Positions 51,407 through 59,841 of a stretch of 64,000 bases of DNA are shown here, one piece after another. Every line of letters begins with the position of its first letter. Position 1 is the first letter of the stretch. The notes below the pieces were generated by a model. It did not search any database and had not been told where the DNA came from. It worked only from the letters and a program-made list of their open reading frames with translations. Position numbers and translations under genes: made by a program. The DNA is from Acidobacteriota bacterium (GTDB lineage: Bacteria > Acidobacteriota > Terriglobia > Terriglobales > Acidobacteriaceae): positions 186,001 to 250,000 of the forward strand of contig JAJZVX010000003.1 of assembly GCA_021846985.1 (NCBI GenBank), given 5' to 3'.

Positions 51407-52111
51407 CTACAGTTCCGCGTCGAGCAGGTCGCTGAGGCCCTTCATATCCCTGGCCACGATCTGGCGTGCCTCGACTTCGATGAGACCCTCGGCCTGCAGG
51501 CGCATGAGGTTGCGCGAGATCAATTCGCGCACGGTGCCCAGCTGATTGGCGAGTTCCTGGTGCGTTCCGGGAAGCAGAAATTCCGTGCCACGGGCGGTTT
51601 TTCTGCCCTGCGTTTGCGCAAGTTTGACCAGAACGGCGATGAGGCGCTGGCGAACGGTGGTGAAGGACAACTCCTCAATGATGTTAACCAGCTGGCGCAG
51701 GCGCGCTCCGACCACGGAGAGAACCTTGAGCGCCACCTCGGGATGATCCAGGCAGAAGGAGTTGAAGTCGTGGCGGGAGATGAAGGCAATCTCGGCATCC
51801 TCGACCGCCAGCGCCGAAGCCGGATAGGGCCCTCCGTCGAAGACCGGCAACTCGGCGACGCTCTCGCCGGGTCCGTTGATGGCCAGCACCTGCTCGCGCC
51901 CGCTCATCGAGGTTTTGAAGATGCGGACCCGGCCGGATGCAATGATGTGGAGGCCGGAACAAGGCTCACCCTCAGAGAAGAGCAACTCGCCGGAAGAGAA
52001 GAGCTTGCGGACGGTTCGCGCGGCAAGCAGTTGCAGCTCGGTGGGAGAAAGCCCCGACAGCAAAGCTGTCTTCTGCAAAACACCGGCGAGATTGGCGCGC
52101 GGAACGGCCAC
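51407..52111 (-). CDS. Crp/Fnr-family transcriptional regulator
   Basis: A 234-residue regulator: cyclic-nucleotide-binding-like beta-barrel (FSSGELLFSEGEPCSGLHIIASGRVRIFK, VAELPVFDGGPYPASALAVED), a dimerisation helix (KVLSVVGARLRQLVNIIEEL), and a C-terminal Crp winged helix (GTHQELANQLGTVRELISRNLMRLQAEGLI). The FNR iron-sulfur cysteines at the N-terminus are absent, and the barrel lacks the RxS cAMP signature, so the effector is unknown. The start is GTG at 52111; TAAAAT ends six bases before it, so the mRNA is probably leaderless. It may control the NapH-like gene immediately upstream. Confidence 0.9.
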   Translation of the reverse strand: MAVPRANLAGVLQKTALLSGLSPTELQLLAARTVRKLFSSGELLFSEGEPCSGLHIIASGRVRIFKTSMSGREQVLAINGPGESVAELPVFDGGPYPASALAVEDAEIAFISRHDFNSFCLDHPEVALKVLSVVGARLRQLVNIIEELSFTTVRQRLIAVLVKLAQTQGRKTARGTEFLLPGTHQELANQLGTVRELISRNLMRLQAEGLIEVEARQIVARDMKGLSDLLDAEL

Positions 52112-52117
52112 GTCCGG

Positions 52118-52123
52118 ATTTTA
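52118..52123 (-). promoter_or_regulatory. -10 box of the Crp/Fnr regulator gene (TAAAAT)
   Basis: On the minus strand TAAAAT, six bases (CCGGAC), GTG start codon. No Shine-Dalgarno sequence is present. Confidence 0.65.
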
Positions 52124-52200
52124 CCAGCACATCGGCGGGAATCTGGAGGAGAGTAGCGCAGGTTGCAGGCGCCGCATGGAGGGAAGGCGCCTGGGCGGGG

Positions 52201-53307
52201 CTAGAAACCGGCGTGTCCGAATTGATTGGCCTCCGGCACGAGGTCCATGTACATGGCGCGCGGCAGGTTGGTATGCCAGTGGCCGGTGATGCGGGCAAAG
52301 AGCACCGTTCCGAGGAAGAGGACGGCGACGATGCCGGCGACCGCCGCAGGGCGAAGGACGCGCCGGGACCAGCGCGAAGACAGATGAGCGGCCGGCCTGG
52401 GCGGCAGGGCAAACTGCAGCGCACCCTGCACCTGGCAGACGGCAACGCACTCCACGCAGCCGGTGCACTCCACCGAGTGGATCTGGACCAGATGGTCTAC
52501 GGGAAGGCTGGCCGGGCAGGCGTTCGCGCACTTGCCGCAGTTGACGCAAGCCTCGGCGTCGCGGCGGATCTTCACGGGGCTGAGCAGCGAAACCAGCCCC
52601 ATCAAACCGCCGTAGGGGCATAGATAGCGGCACCAGAAGTTTTTCACCAGAACGGAGGCGAAAACCAGCACCGCGATGACAATAACCGCTGTGCTGCCGA
52701 TGTAGCGGAAGAAGTTGAGCATCTTGACGTCGGCAAGGAGGCCATAGGGCGTTTGCATAAACGACTTGATGGCTTCCGCGGACATGGTCCCAATGACGAA
52801 AACAAAGAAGCCGAGCAGGATGTACTTCAAGGAGCGCAGGGGAAGATCGACCCAGCGTGGAAGATGGAGGTTGCGCCCCAGAAAGTGGCGTCCCAGTTTC
52901 CAGAGGAACTCCGAAAAGGTGCCGACAGGACAGAGCCAGGAGCAGAAAGCCTTTTTGAGCAGCAGGCTGGTGAGAACGAACGCCAGGAAGAGAAACATGG
53001 CCGCCGGATGAACGGCCGGCACGCGCCCGGTCATCAAGAGATATTTGAAGTTCATGAAACCGGCGATGGGTAGCCAGCCCTCCACCCCTGCTGGACGGGG
53101 CAGATAGAGTCCCGCCCCACCCTGCTCGAAATACCGGACCCAGAGGTAAAACTGGATCGCGATCCAGGCATTCAAAAGCAGGAAGGCCGCCTGAACGCCA
53201 TGCCGCACGCGCTGCCACGGCAGCGCTTTGGCGCGATGAACCAGCTTCCTCGGCTTTCGCGGAAGATCCGCCGTTTGCGATTGAACGACCAACTCAGCCT
53301 GTTCCAT
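52201..53307 (-). CDS. membrane-bound 4Fe-4S protein (NapH/CcoG-like)
   Basis: A 368-residue integral membrane ferredoxin. It has about five helices (GVQAAFLLLNAWIAIQFYLW, AMFLFLAFVLTSLLL, YILLGFFVFVIGTM, VIVIAVLVFASVLV, and a C-terminal one), two CxxxCP loops of the NapH/NosR type (CSWLCPVG near residue 121, CRYLCPYG near residue 226), and two ferredoxin clusters (CVNCGKCANACP and CTGCVECVAVCQ, residues ~256-300). Such proteins pass quinol electrons to periplasmic reductases or help assemble oxidases. No terminal reductase is adjacent, so its partner is elsewhere. A TACGCT box eight bases before the ATG could be the -10. Confidence 0.85.
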   Translation of the reverse strand: MEQAELVVQSQTADLPRKPRKLVHRAKALPWQRVRHGVQAAFLLLNAWIAIQFYLWVRYFEQGGAGLYLPRPAGVEGWLPIAGFMNFKYLLMTGRVPAVHPAAMFLFLAFVLTSLLLKKAFCSWLCPVGTFSEFLWKLGRHFLGRNLHLPRWVDLPLRSLKYILLGFFVFVIGTMSAEAIKSFMQTPYGLLADVKMLNFFRYIGSTAVIVIAVLVFASVLVKNFWCRYLCPYGGLMGLVSLLSPVKIRRDAEACVNCGKCANACPASLPVDHLVQIHSVECTGCVECVAVCQVQGALQFALPPRPAAHLSSRWSRRVLRPAAVAGIVAVLFLGTVLFARITGHWHTNLPRAMYMDLVPEANQFGHAGF

Positions 53308-53390: not shown

Positions 53391-54479
53391 TCAAAGCGAT
53401 TCAACCAGGCGGCTCATCCTCTCTTCCTGCTGTCCGATGGATTCGACGAGTTTGAACTGGGTGCGGCAGCGGTCGAGGTTGTGGCCCTCGCGATGCACCT
53501 TGAAGTAGGTGTCGCCGGATAGAAAGTCAGTGAGGAAACGGATGCCGATCTCAAAGGTGATGAGTTTCCCGGAAAAGGCAAGGTATTGTTTTTCGGCGGC
53601 GGTGAGGAATCCGCCGGCGGTGGAGAGATATCCGCGCACCAGAGCCTCGAAAAGGGGAAATTGCATGGCGACCCTGGAGAGATCCTGCTCATCTTCCTGG
53701 GTGGGGCTGGTGGCGGTGCGCACCATGTCGCCAAAGTCGTAGAGCACCAATCCCGGCATCACGGTGTCAAGGTCGATTACGCAGATACCTTCGCCGGTAA
53801 CGTCGTCGATCATCACATTGTTGAGCTTGGTGTCGTTGTGGGTAACGCGCTCAGGCAGCCTGGCATCGAGGAGCGTGCTGACCATGTGGCGATGAGCGAG
53901 GGCAAAGTCGATCTCCGGCCCGGCAAGAGCGGCGCGCCCTGCCACGTCGGAAGCGATGGCCTGCTCCAGTGCCGCAAACCGCTGCGGGGTGTGGTGGAAG
54001 CCGGGAATGGTGTCGTGGAGGCGCGGAGGGGGCAACTCGGCAAGTTGCTGCTGGAAACGGCCAAACGCCCGGGCGGCCTGAAAGACCTGCGCGGGGGACT
54101 CGGGGGCATCGTACGTGCGGGCATTGGCGATGAAGAGATAGGCGCGCCAGTAGTTACCCTCGGGGTCAAGGAACCAAGATTGCCGGTCGCGAGTAGAGAT
54201 GAGCGTGAGCGTTCGCCGGCCGCGGTCGGGATCGGTGGTCAACTGCGCGGCAAGATGCTTGGTGACGCGCTCGACGTTTTCCATCAACGCAACTGGATTT
54301 CTGAAGACATGGTGATTGATGCGCTGGAAGATGATGCGAAACAGCGCGCCTGCCTTTTTGAAAGCCGCACAGTAGGTATCGTTGATGTGTCCGCTGCCGT
54401 AACGCTCGGCATGGAGGAATTCGCCGTCGATTTGAAAGTGGCGCGCCACGGCCGCCACATGGTTGTGATGGTAGTTCAT
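53391..54479 (-). CDS. APH-fold kinase, N-acetylhexosamine 1-kinase (NahK)-like
   Basis: A 362-residue aminoglycoside-phosphotransferase-fold kinase. RYGSGHINDTYCA is the Gly-rich ATP loop, RIIFQRINHHVFRNPVALMENV carries the phosphate-anchoring Lys/Arg segment, THNDTKLNNVMID near residue 217 is the catalytic HxDxxxxN loop and VIDLDTVMPG the DxD metal site. These features, especially 'IFQRIN..VF', are typical of the NahK group that phosphorylates GlcNAc/GalNAc or similar sugars at O1. Its ATG overlaps the stop of the nucleotidyltransferase gene by four bases, suggesting that the two make an NDP-sugar by salvage. Confidence 0.85.
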   Translation of the reverse strand: MNYHHNHVAAVARHFQIDGEFLHAERYGSGHINDTYCAAFKKAGALFRIIFQRINHHVFRNPVALMENVERVTKHLAAQLTTDPDRGRRTLTLISTRDRQSWFLDPEGNYWRAYLFIANARTYDAPESPAQVFQAARAFGRFQQQLAELPPPRLHDTIPGFHHTPQRFAALEQAIASDVAGRAALAGPEIDFALAHRHMVSTLLDARLPERVTHNDTKLNNVMIDDVTGEGICVIDLDTVMPGLVLYDFGDMVRTATSPTQEDEQDLSRVAMQFPLFEALVRGYLSTAGGFLTAAEKQYLAFSGKLITFEIGIRFLTDFLSGDTYFKVHREGHNLDRCRTQFKLVESIGQQEERMSRLVESL

Positions 54480-55384
54480 GCCCAGAGTCTTTCGGGATAA
54501 CGGCCTTCGCGAATGAGGGCGCGCATGCTCTCGGCCACGCGGGAGTGGTCCTCGCGATAGGTGACACCAAACCAGGATTCACTGGTGGGCAGCACGCGCA
54601 CCCGGGCACGGCCAGCGGCCATCAGCTCGTCGATTGCGGTGGGGATATAGAACTCCGCCCGCACACTGGAAGCATTGCGTTGGAGGAAGGCGAGGAAGCG
54701 CTCGCGCAGCTGGGCGAAAACCCCGGGCGTAAAGCCCCACATGTTCATCGAGACCTGCTCGTCGCCGGTCAAAGGCGTGACATGGCCGGCATCGTCGGTG
54801 TTGCGGGCATGCTCGCCATCCGGTTCGATTCTGGTCAACTCCTGAATTCCTGCAAGATAGCCGTCATCCGTCACCTGGGTTACGCCGCGGGAGACGGAGC
54901 CAAAGCGGGAAAGCGTGTTGCGCAAAACAAAGCCCACCATGGCGTAATCCGGCGAGCCCGACTGCAAATGGCCGGCGAGGAGGCGAAAGCTCGCGGCGCC
55001 ATAGAAGTCGTCGGCATTGATGACGGCGAAGGGTTCCTGGATTGCCTCGGAGGCGGCGAGAATCGCGTGCGCGGTGCCCCACGGCTTGGTGCGACCGGCC
55101 GGAACCTCATAGCCCGCAGGGAGGTCGCTCTGTTCCTGGAAGACATAGTCAACCGCAAACCGCGTTTCAAAGCGCGCACCAACGGTCTGCCGGAAGGCGT
55201 GCTCGATATCCTTGCGGATGACAAAGACCAGCTTGTCGAATCCGGCGCGGAGGGCATCATAGGCCGAGTAGTCGATGATGGTTTCGCCGCCGGGGCCAAC
55301 GGGATCGATCTGCTTCAAACCGCCGTAGCGATTGCCCATGCCGGCGGCGAGAACAAGGAGAGTGGGAGGGGTCATAGGCTTCAT
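54476..55384 (-). CDS. sugar-phosphate nucleotidyltransferase
   Basis: A 302-residue NTP-transferase fold protein. LLVLAAGMGNRYGGLKQIDPVGPGGETIIDYS is the nucleotide-binding loop (GxGxR variant, Lys24-like), VINADDFYGAASF the metal-binding Asp region, GTAHAILAA and MNMWGFTP the sugar-binding blocks. It would transfer a nucleotide to a sugar 1-phosphate, very likely the product of the overlapping kinase. Nucleotide (UTP, GTP or dTTP) and sugar cannot be read from sequence. TAGAAT about 38 bases upstream on the minus strand may be the -10. Confidence 0.88.
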   Translation of the reverse strand: MKPMTPPTLLVLAAGMGNRYGGLKQIDPVGPGGETIIDYSAYDALRAGFDKLVFVIRKDIEHAFRQTVGARFETRFAVDYVFQEQSDLPAGYEVPAGRTKPWGTAHAILAASEAIQEPFAVINADDFYGAASFRLLAGHLQSGSPDYAMVGFVLRNTLSRFGSVSRGVTQVTDDGYLAGIQELTRIEPDGEHARNTDDAGHVTPLTGDEQVSMNMWGFTPGVFAQLRERFLAFLQRNASSVRAEFYIPTAIDELMAAGRARVRVLPTSESWFGVTYREDHSRVAESMRALIREGRYPERLWA

Positions 55385-55500
55385 GGAGTCGAGTGCGCCT
55401 GGGGGGTGGTAACTGGTTCATTCTACCCTTTGGACGCGCCCGAAATCAGGGATATATGAGGTAACGGGAAGGTCCCGGGCAGAAAATTGTTGGGCGCGGT

Positions 55501-55530
55501 TTGCATATCGGACTCATTTAATCCTAGAAT
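55501..55530 (+). promoter_or_regulatory. promoter of the sulfite/nitrite reductase transcript
   Basis: TTGCAT (55501-55506), 18 bases, TAGAAT (55525-55530). The predicted start, six to seven bases on, coincides with the ATG at 55537 of a short ORF. The 312-base intergenic region 55385-55696 holds this promoter, the short ORF and an attenuator-like terminator. Confidence 0.75.
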
Positions 55531-55536
55531 GAAGAC

Positions 55537-55590
55537 ATGTTTGAGCTGACCTGTTGTCGCTGCCAGATGCCGCTTCGCGCGCACGGGTGA
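55537..55590 (+). CDS. cysteine-rich leader peptide (17 codons)
   Basis: Codes for MFELTCCRCQMPLRAHG, then TGA. Three of four consecutive codons (6, 7 and 9) are Cys, with the first Cys pair adjacent. The ATG lies six bases after the -10 box, so it would be read as a leaderless ORF from the 5' end of the transcript. A strong terminator follows 45 bases later and the sulfite/nitrite reductase gene 107 bases later. The arrangement is that of an amino-acid leader peptide, here sensing cysteine (charged tRNA-Cys), the end product of sulfite reduction. Translation has not been shown. Confidence 0.65.
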   Translation: MFELTCCRCQMPLRAHG

Positions 55591-55634
55591 CCTGGGTCCA
55601 GCCAAGCTTCGAACGAAATCCAAGGTTCCGAATG

Positions 55635-55674
55635 GCCCGCGATGCAGCCCCGACTGCCGCGGGCTTTTCGTTTT
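55635..55674 (+). terminator. intrinsic terminator in the leader of the reductase gene (attenuator candidate)
   Basis: GCCCGCG (55635-55641) pairs with CGCGGGC (55658-55664) around a 16-base loop, followed by TTTTCGTTTT. It lies between the promoter and the start codon at 55697, so it must be bypassed for expression. A clear antiterminator is not obvious; CGGGT at the end of the small ORF (55584-55588) can pair weakly with GCCCG. Confidence 0.75.
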
Positions 55675-55696
55675 CCTGTCCCCAAAGAGGAGAAAC

Positions 55697-57391
55697 ATGA
55701 ATCAGAATGCCGTGACACATGAGACCAAGGCCCAGCGAGCCGAACGGCTGAAGCGCGAAAAGAATCCCTGGGCGGTCTTCGACGAGGTGCGCAGATTTGC
55801 GCGCGAGGGTCGTGCCAGTGTAGTTCCGGAATGGGCCGGGATGTATTTCAAGTGGTGGGGCATCTACACGCAGGGCGACGGCGTGGGCGCCACGGGAGGA
55901 AAAGGAGGCGAAGGACTGGCCTCCGAGTACTTCATGATGCGGATCGGCATGCCCAACGGCATCGTCTCGTCGAGCCAGCTCAGGATCATCGCGGGATTGG
56001 CGCGCAAGCACGCCCGGAACCTGGCCGACATCACCGTCCGCCAGAACATCCAGCTGCATTGGCTTACCATTGAGTCGCTGCCCGAAGTGGTGGACACGCT
56101 GGATGCGGCGGGGCTTTCGCCGAAAGGAGCGTGCGGCGATGTGGTGCGCAACGTGACCGGTTGTCCGCTGGCAGGCATTGCCGCAGATGAGGCACTTGAC
56201 GCATCGCCCGTAGCTCTGGAGATTTCGGAGCTGCTGAAGGGCAATCCTGATTTCTACAATCTGCCGCGGAAGTTCAAGATTTCGGCAACCGGGTGTCCGT
56301 CGTGGTGCACCTATCCGGAGATCAACGACGTTGCGTTAACGCCGGCGCGGCTGAACGGCGAGATGGGCTACTCCATTCGCGTGGGTGGGGGATTGTCGCG
56401 CGAGCCGCACCTTGCCGTTCGCCTCGATGCCTTTATAAGGCCCCATCAGGCTGTCAGCGTGGCGCGCGCCGTGGCGGAGATCTTCCGCGATCAGCAAAAG
56501 CTGCGCGAACGCCGCGAGCAGGCGCGCATGAAGTATCTTTTTTTGAAAGAGGGATGGACGGCCGAGGGTTTTCTGGCAGAGCTGCAATCGCGGCTCGACT
56601 TCACGCTGGCGCGCGGAGGAGAGGAGCGGGTTCCGGGCGACATTCTGCGTGATCATGCCGGCATCCATCCGCAGCGTCAGCCAGGCCTGAGCTATGTGGG
56701 CGCCACCGTGCTGCGCGGGCGCATGACGGGCGATCAACTGGAAGCCGCAGCGGAGTTGGCGGAGCGCTTTGGCAATGGAGAGCTGCGCGCCACGGTGAGC
56801 CAGAACCTGGTGTTTATCCATATTCCCAACCGCAAGACCGCCGAACTGGCGCGCGAGCTGGGCCAGATTGGCCTGCACGTGGATGGGTCGGCCTTCTGGC
56901 GCGGAGCCATCGCCTGCACAGGCACGGAGTTCTGCAAGCTGGCCATTACCGAAACGAAGGGCTTTACCCGCTGGCTTGTGGACGAACTGGAAGAGCGGCT
57001 GCCGCAGTTTGACCAGCAGCTCAAGCTGCATGTAACGGGATGCCCGAACGGCTGCGGCCAGCACTGGATTGCCGACATTGGCCTGGAGGGCAAGAAGGTC
57101 AAGCACGACGGCAAGCTGATCGACGCCTACTCTTTCTGCCTTGGCGGAGCCGTAGGCAAGCATGCGCGGATTTCCCGTCCGGTAGGCTTCCGTTGCCCCG
57201 CAGCACAGACTCCGGAGGCGGTGGAACGCCTGCTGCGGCAGTATCTTGCCGGGCGGCGACCCAACGAAAACTTGCGCGCGTGGTTCGGCCGGTACTCAAA
57301 TGATGAGTTACGCGGTTTTCTGGCCGGTGAATCGGTGGAGTCCGTGGAACGCGACCTGCCTGCCGGCCGCTTGGCGCAGGCCGCGGATTGA
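55697..57391 (+). CDS. siroheme-dependent sulfite/nitrite reductase (ferredoxin type)
   Basis: A 564-residue one-subunit reductase with two pseudo-repeated halves. The 4Fe-4S/siroheme cysteines are CTGTEFC near residue 407 and GCPNGCGQ near residue 449 (C-x5-C and C-x3-C). Siroheme-binding arginines are in SSQLRIIAGLARKH, RQNIQLHWLT and VVRNVTGCPLAGI. It makes six-electron reductions, sulfite to sulfide or nitrite to ammonia. Sequence does not decide, but a Cys-rich leader peptide upstream and an adjacent siroheme synthase favour assimilatory sulfite reduction. GAGGAG lies five bases before the ATG. Confidence 0.9.
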   Translation: MNQNAVTHETKAQRAERLKREKNPWAVFDEVRRFAREGRASVVPEWAGMYFKWWGIYTQGDGVGATGGKGGEGLASEYFMMRIGMPNGIVSSSQLRIIAGLARKHARNLADITVRQNIQLHWLTIESLPEVVDTLDAAGLSPKGACGDVVRNVTGCPLAGIAADEALDASPVALEISELLKGNPDFYNLPRKFKISATGCPSWCTYPEINDVALTPARLNGEMGYSIRVGGGLSREPHLAVRLDAFIRPHQAVSVARAVAEIFRDQQKLRERREQARMKYLFLKEGWTAEGFLAELQSRLDFTLARGGEERVPGDILRDHAGIHPQRQPGLSYVGATVLRGRMTGDQLEAAAELAERFGNGELRATVSQNLVFIHIPNRKTAELARELGQIGLHVDGSAFWRGAIACTGTEFCKLAITETKGFTRWLVDELEERLPQFDQQLKLHVTGCPNGCGQHWIADIGLEGKKVKHDGKLIDAYSFCLGGAVGKHARISRPVGFRCPAAQTPEAVERLLRQYLAGRRPNENLRAWFGRYSNDELRGFLAGESVESVERDLPAGRLAQAAD

Positions 57392-57403: not shown

Positions 57404-58777
57404 ATGAACCTGTTGCCGATTTTCGTGAAGCTTGAGGGGCGACGCTGTCTGCTGGTGGGCGCAGGTCATGTCGCGCTGGATAAGGCCGCCAGTCTGCTGG
57501 GGGCCGGGGCGCAGCTGCGGGTGGTTGCGCCCCGGGCGATTCCTGCGATACAGGAACTTGCCGAATCAGGACAACTGGAATGGATACAACGGGAGTTTGC
57601 GCCCGCCGACCTCGACGGCTATCAGTTGGCGATTGCGGCAACCGATTCCCCCGAGGTGAATGCCGCGGTGCACCGGGAGGCGGCCGCTCGCGACGTTCTT
57701 TCCAACAGCGTGGACGACATCCCCAACTGCGATTTCTTTTTTGGCTCGGTGGTGAAGCGCGGCAGCCTGCATGTAGCGATTTCGACAGGCGGAGAAAGTC
57801 CTACCTTTGCGCAGCGGCTGCGGCGCGAGATGGATGAGGCGCTGCCCGCGGAGTTGGGAACCTGGCTGGAGCAGCAAGGGGAACTACGGCGGCAGGTGCT
57901 GGCGGCGCATCCGCGCAGCGAGGCGCGCCGGGCGCTGTTGCACCGGCTGGCGCAATTGCCGGTTTGCGCGTCGAGCGACTGCCCGGCGCGCCGGCGCGCG
58001 CTGGAGCCGCTGGACCGGAGCGAGAGTGAAGACCAAGGCAAGGTCTATCTTGTGGGCGCGGGTCCGGGCGATCCGGACCTGCTGACGGTCAAAGCCCTGC
58101 GCTTGATTCAAACCGCCGGGGTGCTGCTGCACGACGACCTGGTTCCGGAGACGATTGTGCGGCTGGCGGCGCCCGGGACCGAGGTGGAGAACGTGGGGAA
58201 ACGGTGTGGCGCCAAAACCGTGACCCAGGAACAGATTCACGAGCGGATGATCGACGGTGCGCGGCGCGGGCGCATGGTGGTCCGGCTGAAGAGCGGCGAC
58301 CCGTTGATTTTTGGCCGCGCCAGCGAAGAGATAACCGCCCTGACGGAGGCGGGCGTGCCTTGGGAGATCGTGCCGGGCATTACGGCTGCCTTTGCTGCCT
58401 CTGCTGCGGTTGGCCGGTCGCTGACAGACAGGAACAGCGCCTGCCGGGTGATCTTCTCGACAGGCCATCATGCGCCTGCCCGCAAGCGGCCGAAGGGGCC
58501 AGCCTGGGACGAGGCGACGCGCGTGGTGTACATGCCGGGCCGCGACCTGCGGCCGCTGGCCGCGGAGTGGCTCGAAGAGGGCCTTCCACCGGAGCTGCCT
58601 TGCGCCGTGATCTCGCGCGCCTCCCAGCCGGATGAGCGGGTGCTTTACACCACGCTGGGAGGGCTTGGGCGAACCGAAGCTCCCCTCGCCCCAGGCATCC
58701 TTATCGCCGGATGGGCTGTGGGAGAGCGGAATGTGCCCGATGCGCCCGCCACGGATAACCTCACCTGTCCAGACTAA
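57404..58777 (+). CDS. cysG: siroheme synthase, trifunctional (CysG type)
   Basis: A 457-residue fusion that converts uroporphyrinogen III to siroheme, the cofactor of the reductase encoded just before it. Residues 1-200 are the precorrin-2 dehydrogenase/ferrochelatase part (FVKLEGRRCLLVGAGHVALDKA, AATDSPEVNAAVHREA, FFFGSVVKRGSLHVAISTGGESPTFAQRLR); residues ~215-457 the SAM-dependent methyltransferase (VYLVGAGPGDPDLLTVKAL, LLHDDLV, RLKSGDPLIFGRASEE, EIVPGITAAFAASA). Twelve bases separate it from the reductase stop, so both respond to the same leader. A hairpin follows at 58819. Confidence 0.95.
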   Translation: MNLLPIFVKLEGRRCLLVGAGHVALDKAASLLGAGAQLRVVAPRAIPAIQELAESGQLEWIQREFAPADLDGYQLAIAATDSPEVNAAVHREAAARDVLSNSVDDIPNCDFFFGSVVKRGSLHVAISTGGESPTFAQRLRREMDEALPAELGTWLEQQGELRRQVLAAHPRSEARRALLHRLAQLPVCASSDCPARRRALEPLDRSESEDQGKVYLVGAGPGDPDLLTVKALRLIQTAGVLLHDDLVPETIVRLAAPGTEVENVGKRCGAKTVTQEQIHERMIDGARRGRMVVRLKSGDPLIFGRASEEITALTEAGVPWEIVPGITAAFAASAAVGRSLTDRNSACRVIFSTGHHAPARKRPKGPAWDEATRVVYMPGRDLRPLAAEWLEEGLPPELPCAVISRASQPDERVLYTTLGGLGRTEAPLAPGILIAGWAVGERNVPDAPATDNLTCPD

Positions 58778-58845: not shown

Positions 58846-58909
58846 TTGTCACAGAAGCCGGACAGATACATCTATTCTGGAACCGCCGTAAGAGGCGCGC
58901 CTCGCCCTT

Positions 58910-58915
58910 TATACT
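58910..58915 (+). promoter_or_regulatory. -10 box of the MTA phosphorylase operon (TATACT)
   Basis: TATACT about 59 bases before the TTG start of the phosphorylase gene. No -35 is evident. Confidence 0.45.
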
Positions 58916-58974
58916 TGGGTTGTTTGCCAATTACGGCCAGGCAACCAGAAAAAAGGTGCGGGAAGGAGCGTGTT

Positions 58975-59841
58975 TTGGCCCAGGCGGAGATCGGTATTAT
59001 TGGCGGCAGCGGGCTGTATTCGATGCCCGGTTTCACGAATGTCCACGAGCAGAGCGTGGAGACACCTTTTGGGTCTCCGTCTGATGCTTTTGTGCTGGGT
59101 GAGTTGGAGGGGCGCAAGGTGGCCTTCCTGGCGAGGCATGGACGCGGGCACCGCATCCTGCCATCCGAGTTGAATTTTCGCGCCAACATCTATGCTTTCA
59201 AGAAGCTTGGCGTGGAGCGCATCCTTTCCGTTTCTGCCGTCGGTTCGCTCAAAGAAGAGCACCAGCCGACGGACTTCGTGATTCCCGACCAGTTCATCGA
59301 CCGCACTTTTCACCGCGTTTCCACTTTTTTTGGCGATGGAATTGTGGGTCACGTAGCCTTTGGTGACCCGGTGTGCGCCACCGTGGCCAAGGCGGCGGCA
59401 GAGGGTTGCGCCCAGGCGGGCGTAGTGGGCAAGCTGGGCGGTACCTATGTGTGCATGGAAGGGCCGCAATTCTCCACCAAGGCGGAATCGAACCTCTATC
59501 GCAGTTGGGGCGCTGACGTGATCGGCATGACCAACCTCCAAGAGGCGAAGCTGGCCCGCGAGGCCGAGATCTGTTACTCCACCGTGGCCATGGTCACCGA
59601 CTACGACTGCTGGCGCGAGGGCCACGATGCGGTAACGATTGAAGAGATTGTGGCGGTGCTGCACAAGAATGCCGATAACGCCGCCAGGGTGGTGAAAGCG
59701 GCCGTGGCGTCCATGCCGCGGGAGCGCACTTGCGCCTGCGCCTCGGCCGCCAAGTACGCCGTACTGACGCAACCGGACGCCATACCCACGGCAGCCAGAG
59801 AGCGGCTGAAACTGCTTTTTGGGAAATACATGGGCTGGTAG
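58975..59841 (+). CDS. mtnP: S-methyl-5'-thioadenosine phosphorylase
   Basis: Splits 5'-methylthioadenosine, a by-product of SAM use, into adenine and 5-methylthioribose 1-phosphate. The 288-residue product has GIIGGSGLYSM at its start (phosphate loop), LARHGRGHRILPSELNFRANI, DQFIDRT, the purine-site block YVCMEGPQFSTKAES near residue 160 and TDYDCWREG near residue 207. No ATG fits; TTG at 58975 has GGAAGGAG seven bases upstream and gives the conserved N-terminus. A frame extension to 58846 has no ribosome site. A PfkB kinase gene follows after 104 bases. Confidence 0.93.
   Translation: MAQAEIGIIGGSGLYSMPGFTNVHEQSVETPFGSPSDAFVLGELEGRKVAFLARHGRGHRILPSELNFRANIYAFKKLGVERILSVSAVGSLKEEHQPTDFVIPDQFIDRTFHRVSTFFGDGIVGHVAFGDPVCATVAKAAAEGCAQAGVVGKLGGTYVCMEGPQFSTKAESNLYRSWGADVIGMTNLQEAKLAREAEICYSTVAMVTDYDCWREGHDAVTIEEIVAVLHKNADNAARVVKAAVASMPRERTCACASAAKYAVLTQPDAIPTAARERLKLLFGKYMGW

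Follow-up and report, generated by a model that had tools for sequence, protein, structure and literature searches.

A ferredoxin-dependent sulfite reductase gene of an Acidobacteriaceae bacterium appears to be controlled by a ribosome-mediated transcription attenuator that would sense charged tRNA-Cys through a leaderless leader peptide. We assign this reading, which rests on comparative sequence analysis and RNA modelling, a probability of roughly 0.87. An earlier note on this DNA had proposed cysteine-responsive attenuation upstream of the gene; conservation in relatives, together with compensatory changes in a mutually exclusive antiterminator, lends support to that proposal. The finding is larger than first stated, with an antiterminator and a regulon added to it. 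Few cases of cysteine-specific transcription attenuation have been proposed; this one has strong computational support in the large number of leaders, an RNA model, a regulon, and compensatory changes in each of the two competing structures. With leaderless initiation the attenuator would be very compact, and it offers a clean system for studying ribosome loading at the 5′ end and its coupling to transcription.

Leader and gene organization in the window

The DNA analysed (the window) is a single stretch of 64 kb. The nearest named relatives of its genome, all Acidobacteriaceae, are Terracidiphilus, Occallatibacter, Acidipila and Edaphobacter. A promoter, a mini-ORF and a terminator lie in the intergenic stretch between a nucleotidyltransferase gene and the divergent reductase gene. 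The features are as follows.

54476-55384, minus strand: nucleotidyltransferase gene, divergent from the reductase gene
55501-55530, plus strand: promoter, read from the sequence (-35 TTGCAT 55501-55506; 18-nt spacer; -10 TAGAAT 55525-55530)
55537-55590, plus strand: leaderless leader-peptide ORF MFELTCCRCQMPLRAHG, read from the sequence and kept in genus and family
55552-55563, plus strand: control codons UGU UGU CGC UGC (Cys Cys Arg Cys), assigned from Cys conservation and UGU bias in relatives
55572-55587, plus strand: region 2, the 5′ strand of the proposed antiterminator, within the ORF (swap test, folding and covariation; weak in the window genome alone)
55590-55597, plus strand: 5′ arm of the apical antiterminator hairpin, ACCUGGGU, overlapping the stop codon (compensatory changes in relatives)
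55618-55626, plus strand: 3′ arm of the apical antiterminator hairpin, AUCCAAGGU (compensatory changes in relatives)
55635-55674, plus strand: intrinsic terminator (arms GCCCGCG 55635-55641 and CGCGGGC 55658-55664; inner GCAG/CUGC; U-rich tract 55665-55674)
55697-57391, plus strand: regulated gene, ferredoxin-dependent sulfite reductase (SirA/NirA type), assigned from domains, structure match and a Tyr/Cys pair
57404-58777, plus strand: siroheme synthase gene cysG, 12 nt after the reductase gene

Direct reading showed that the positions given in the earlier note for the promoter, the 17-codon ORF and the 7-bp GC hairpin were exact. The leader ATG at 55537 lies six bases past the end of the -10 element, and the 17 codons of the ORF are followed by a TGA stop. 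On this spacing, RNA polymerase would start at or adjoining the A of the leader ATG. When both strands of the window were scanned for a leaderless Cys-Cys mini-ORF, the ORF at 55537-55590 was the sole match. The U-rich tract TTTTCGTTTT directly follows the 7-bp GC stem on its 3′ side, and the terminator has a predicted energy of -20.4 kcal/mol. Between it and the reductase ATG at 55697 lie 22 nt, and the Shine-Dalgarno sequence GAGGAG that precedes this ATG lies outside the hairpin. A search of 55380-55760 with Rfam covariance models returned only a chance-level microRNA match (E = 8.5).

A palindrome, GGACC-N5-GGTCT, lies between the -35 and -10 elements at a sub-group of related loci (L011, L012, L015, L018, L027 and L030) and is degenerate in the window (55507-55524). 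It could be bound by a repressor of the leader promoter. Control mainly at initiation by such a repressor, with the leader only fine-tuning, is very improbable: the palindrome is absent or degenerate in most relatives as well as in the window; the leader and terminator, by contrast, occur generally. A repressor could nevertheless act at the palindrome in addition to the leader.

Mutually exclusive terminator and proposed antiterminator

The proposed antiterminator is a single long imperfect hairpin that extends from codon 13 across the stop codon and as far as the terminator 5′ arm. This arm thus serves also as the antiterminator 3′ strand, and the two structures are mutually exclusive. Pairing and covariation statistics were obtained for both from 46 distinct leaders and 500 shuffles. 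In the terminator, 94.1% of cells were paired, as against at most 46% when the alignment was slid, and 11 cells were altered on both sides, a result matched in 0 of 500 shuffles. Its outer stem was paired in 97.8% of cells, as anticipated by the earlier note, which had predicted a terminator conserved in orthologues. In the antiterminator, 84.5% of cells were paired (at most 52% when slid), with changes on both sides in 21 cells (0/500 shuffles) and 9 pairs (6/500 shuffles). A first consensus fold made without a structure hypothesis recovered the terminator alone.

Comparison of own with swapped antiterminator halves favoured the own pair at three levels of redundancy removal (P = 1e-4, n = 51; P = 3.5e-4, n = 36; P = 0.012, n = 27), by statistics that, like those of the shuffles, ignore phylogeny. 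A control combining the leader up to codon 10 with the 3′ half gave no own advantage (P > 0.8). The core pairing of region 2 with region 3, taken alone, gave P = 0.36 and 0.70 in the swap test once near-duplicates were removed; covariation comes chiefly from the apical hairpin and from the structure as a whole. In the Edaphobacter-type group the swap test reached only P = 0.03-0.12. Another candidate antiterminator, in which the third Cys codon (GCUGUA) would pair with UACAGC of the terminator, was dropped because of the codon-10 control.

Folding of 54 sequences was modelled for the RNA that exists before the terminator 3′ arm is made. The terminator 5′ arm was paired upstream at a mean of 0.78 with the ribosome placed at codon 7, and of 0.39 with the ribosome placed at the stop codon. 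The full-length RNA at equilibrium favoured the terminator even with a ribosome modelled as stalled (mean 0.87). Because the terminator wins in most sequences once its 3′ arm is present, the antitermination choice would have to be kinetic. The antiterminator of the window is among the weaker ones (0.60 in the folding model; z = -0.17 against shuffles).

The region thus combines a run of codons for the end-product amino acid (Cys) in a short ORF, an intrinsic terminator with compensatory changes between this ORF and the structural gene and, in silico, an antiterminator that makes use of the terminator 5′ arm and would be masked by a ribosome at the stop codon. With transcription starting at the leader ATG, the ribosome would need no Shine-Dalgarno site and would load directly at the 5′ end. 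When Cys-tRNA is scarce, it would stall at UGU UGU (codons 6-7), leaving codons 12-17 and the stop region free to pair with AUCCAAGGU and the terminator 5′ arm. The antiterminator would keep this arm occupied while the polymerase passes, so that the sulfite reductase and siroheme synthase genes would be transcribed. When cysteine is plentiful, the ribosome would proceed to the stop codon and mask both codons 12-17 and the apical hairpin's 5′ half; the terminator would then form, and transcription would presumably end ahead of the reductase gene. Conservation of leader and terminator before sulfur genes across the Acidobacteriaceae indicates that a shortage of cysteine at the ribosome would turn on sulfur assimilation in these bacteria.

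In mycobacteria, Cys-rich leaders upstream of cysteine operons have no conserved terminator hairpins (Seliverstov 2005, PMC1262725), and polycysteine short ORFs are leaderless (Shell 2015, PMC4633059). PMC13236596, citing Canestrari 2020 (also cited in PMC9094748), describes these ORFs as cysteine-responsive translational attenuators. The acidobacterial leaders resemble them in being short Cys-rich ORFs upstream of cysteine genes, leaderless as judged from promoter-ATG spacing; unlike them, they possess an antiterminator as well as an intrinsic terminator that is conserved. Attenuation at the level of translation, as in mycobacteria, with translation of the short ORF governing access to the reductase ribosome-binding site and the hairpin being incidental, is therefore improbable here, although somewhat less so than control by a repressor. 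The GC-rich hairpin and U-rich tract are conserved with compensatory changes, the hairpin stops short of the Shine-Dalgarno sequence, and the terminator keeps its form across genera and across regulon genes while its sequence changes.

Conservation of the leader in the genus and family

The reductase was found in 39 of 40 sampled genomes of the genus, mostly at 71-81% identity. The genus loci contain a leaderless ORF of the type M....CCR.C, mostly of 17 codons, followed by GTGACCTGGGTCT, AATCCACGGTTTC and the terminator. Among 53 genus-level leaders, Cys occupies codon 6 in 49, codon 7 in 49, codon 10 in 48 and codon 9 in 27, and most leaders hold three or four Cys. Codons 2-5 vary freely. Conserved Cys codons among otherwise variable ones had been predicted for orthologues, and the pattern at codons 6, 7 and 10 and at codons 2-5 agrees with that prediction. 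A covariance model built from 46 leaders had a match in 70 of the 80 genus genomes; among the 42 with ≥90% completeness and ≤5% contamination, it matched 40.

By one fixed criterion, a leaderless Cys-Cys mini-ORF lies no more than 260 nt upstream of the reductase gene at 78 of 111 Acidobacteriaceae loci. Outside that interval, the same 111 loci gave 3 matches in 1.28 Mb, corresponding to 0.0006 expected per 260 nt; at least two of the three (at L080 and L142) are leaders in their own right, with a terminator and a transporter gene downstream. Some loci, among them L005, L021 and L024, have a leader that the criterion missed, with an off-consensus -10 element. No leader was found upstream of the reductase gene in the family members L037, L040 and L043. 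The promoter spacer measures 17-18 nt in 80 of 81 family leaders, and the ATG stands 6-7 nt past the -10 element in 74 of 81, a spacing that bears out the earlier claim of a leaderless leader. The contig PMKA01000277.1 (L080) is labelled Opitutia yet has the acidobacterial locus (78% identity) with both leaders, and is probably mis-binned.

In genera whose reductases are 60-71% identical, the leader peptides are unrelated and have only Cys runs in common (for example, MVSSTQLTSMTCRTCCHNCVRRRLCLSCRLTR, MAIFCASRCCMCCCDSVRLRLCPAS and MQTAKNSCCCPVCCCV). These leaders follow a TTGAC-type promoter that ends 6-7 nt before the ATG, and their terminator sequence is different. Distant NIR_SIR homologues in the phylum (about 40% identity) showed no such leader, nor did the cysD loci of three genomes outside the family, so the attenuator system is so far confined to Acidobacteriaceae.

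Cys codon usage in the leaders (UGU 261, UGC 100) is the reverse of that in the reductase genes (UGU 85, UGC 1040). Control would use a Cys codon that is otherwise avoided in the reductase gene. This bias bears on whether the mini-ORF encodes a functional Cys-rich micropeptide that binds metal or takes part in redox reactions, its presence in one operon with a terminator being coincidental. The genus pattern CCR.C..P.RAHR is indeed fairly conserved. None of the leader peptides scored above cut-off against library families, and one gave a weak metallochaperone match far below it. However, the conserved non-Cys codons coincide with the antiterminator strand, and at L013, L018, L026 and L084 the frame or stop is altered in that region with the Cys codons retained. 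Together with the UGU bias and the loss of all but the Cys runs between genera, these observations make a micropeptide function very unlikely.

Sulfur regulon and identity of the reductase

Other members of the system were sought by three converging routes: PAPS_reduct loci, the promoter-ATG-UGUUGU pattern in other genomes, and second matches of the covariance model. Pattern matches in other genomes without a plausible downstream target were left out of the counts. All 20 retrieved second matches were Cys-rich leaders. Ten of them precede cysD-cysN (e.g. MSLCLTPACCCACCCVPRRIVG) and eight precede a TonB-dependent receptor some 790 residues long; of the remaining two, one stands ahead of a YeiH-family transporter (PF03601) and the other ahead of a Porin_O_P protein. 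The receptor genes (L210-L213, L222, L223, L225 and L226) have their own Cys-rich leader and a GGCCGCG-type terminator. YeiH-family transporter genes with a like attenuator were found at L080 (minus strand), L142 (from 1243), L168 and L207; at L080 this attenuator is divergent from the reductase's own.

We consider it likely that leaderless poly-Cys transcription attenuators form a regulon that governs sulfur assimilation and uptake throughout the family, and that they arose separately from the mycobacterial leaders. If so, the receptor group and the YeiH-family transporter would be parts of cysteine/sulfur metabolism. The TonB-dependent receptor family probably imports a sulfur compound, and the regulon gives the first functional lead for it.

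In the window genome, the cysD operon consists of cysD, cysN, cysH and a gene for a membrane protein that, by eye, looks like a TauE/SafE-type exporter. MARASQARRCCCLSNIFDGCMN lies upstream, and no clear terminator was seen at this cysD leader. YeiH is absent from the window genome. Two more in-frame Cys ORFs of this genome (C34; L155 and L156) were rejected: one proved to be the beginning of a lipoprotein gene, and the second runs antisense to that gene.

The reductase has two NIR_SIR domains and two ferredoxin-like half domains, and among solved structures it is nearest to M. tuberculosis NirA/SirA (1zj8). Its Tyr57 and Cys146 correspond in the alignment to Tyr69 and Cys161 of that protein, the crosslinked pair beside siroheme. 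The Tyr/Cys pair is retained in 110 of 111 family proteins; in the same alignment, plant nitrite reductases lack the Cys. The regulon also includes cysD-cysN, and the NirA-like enzyme would therefore be a sulfite reductase. The leader type shared with cysD-cysN and the Tyr/Cys pair thus support the earlier suggestion of a sulfite rather than a nitrite reductase. With its 12-nt gap, cysG is probably in the same operon.

Known attenuators share parts of this arrangement. The uORFC-8-2 motif of Rhodobacterales cysS is predicted to act by ribosome-mediated attenuation and has tandem Cys codons and an intrinsic terminator (PMC8632094). It differs in occurring only before cysteinyl-tRNA synthetase, in alphaproteobacteria, and in being UGC-dominated, with Cys at codon positions 14-15, within the first stem; it is not described as leaderless. 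In Streptomyces, LeuL2, TrpL1 and IlvL are leaderless leader peptides with a hairpin and then a U-rich stretch downstream (PMC8079986); they share the leaderless and terminator form, but their signals are Leu, Trp and branched-chain amino acids and their hosts are actinobacteria. Classical attenuators (trp, his and ilv; mycobacterial ilvB1, PMC13236596) have in common with the present one the control codons, the mutually exclusive terminator and antiterminator, and an end-product signal. Unlike them, the acidobacterial attenuator would respond to cysteine and have no 5′ UTR, and it places the antiterminator 5′ strand inside the leader ORF and stop codon. In three Acidobacteria genomes, some 10-19% of genes are predicted to be leaderless (PMC3160421), and in a broad survey almost no predicted Acidobacteria attenuator had an associated function (PMC2965389). 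Neither the literature searched nor Rfam yielded a leaderless, terminator-based regulon of Cys attenuators in Acidobacteriota.

In one genome, apparently Terracidiphilus gabretensis (G005, L104), the attenuated sulfite reductase is present and a PAPS_reduct-family gene was not found; sulfite may therefore derive there from a source other than sulfate. Elsewhere in the window, a CRP/FNR-type regulator gene adjoins that of a NapH-like membrane ferredoxin protein on the minus strand (51407-53307). The sirA-cysG pair is followed on the same strand by a methylthioadenosine phosphorylase gene (58846-59841), which belongs to sulfur salvage.
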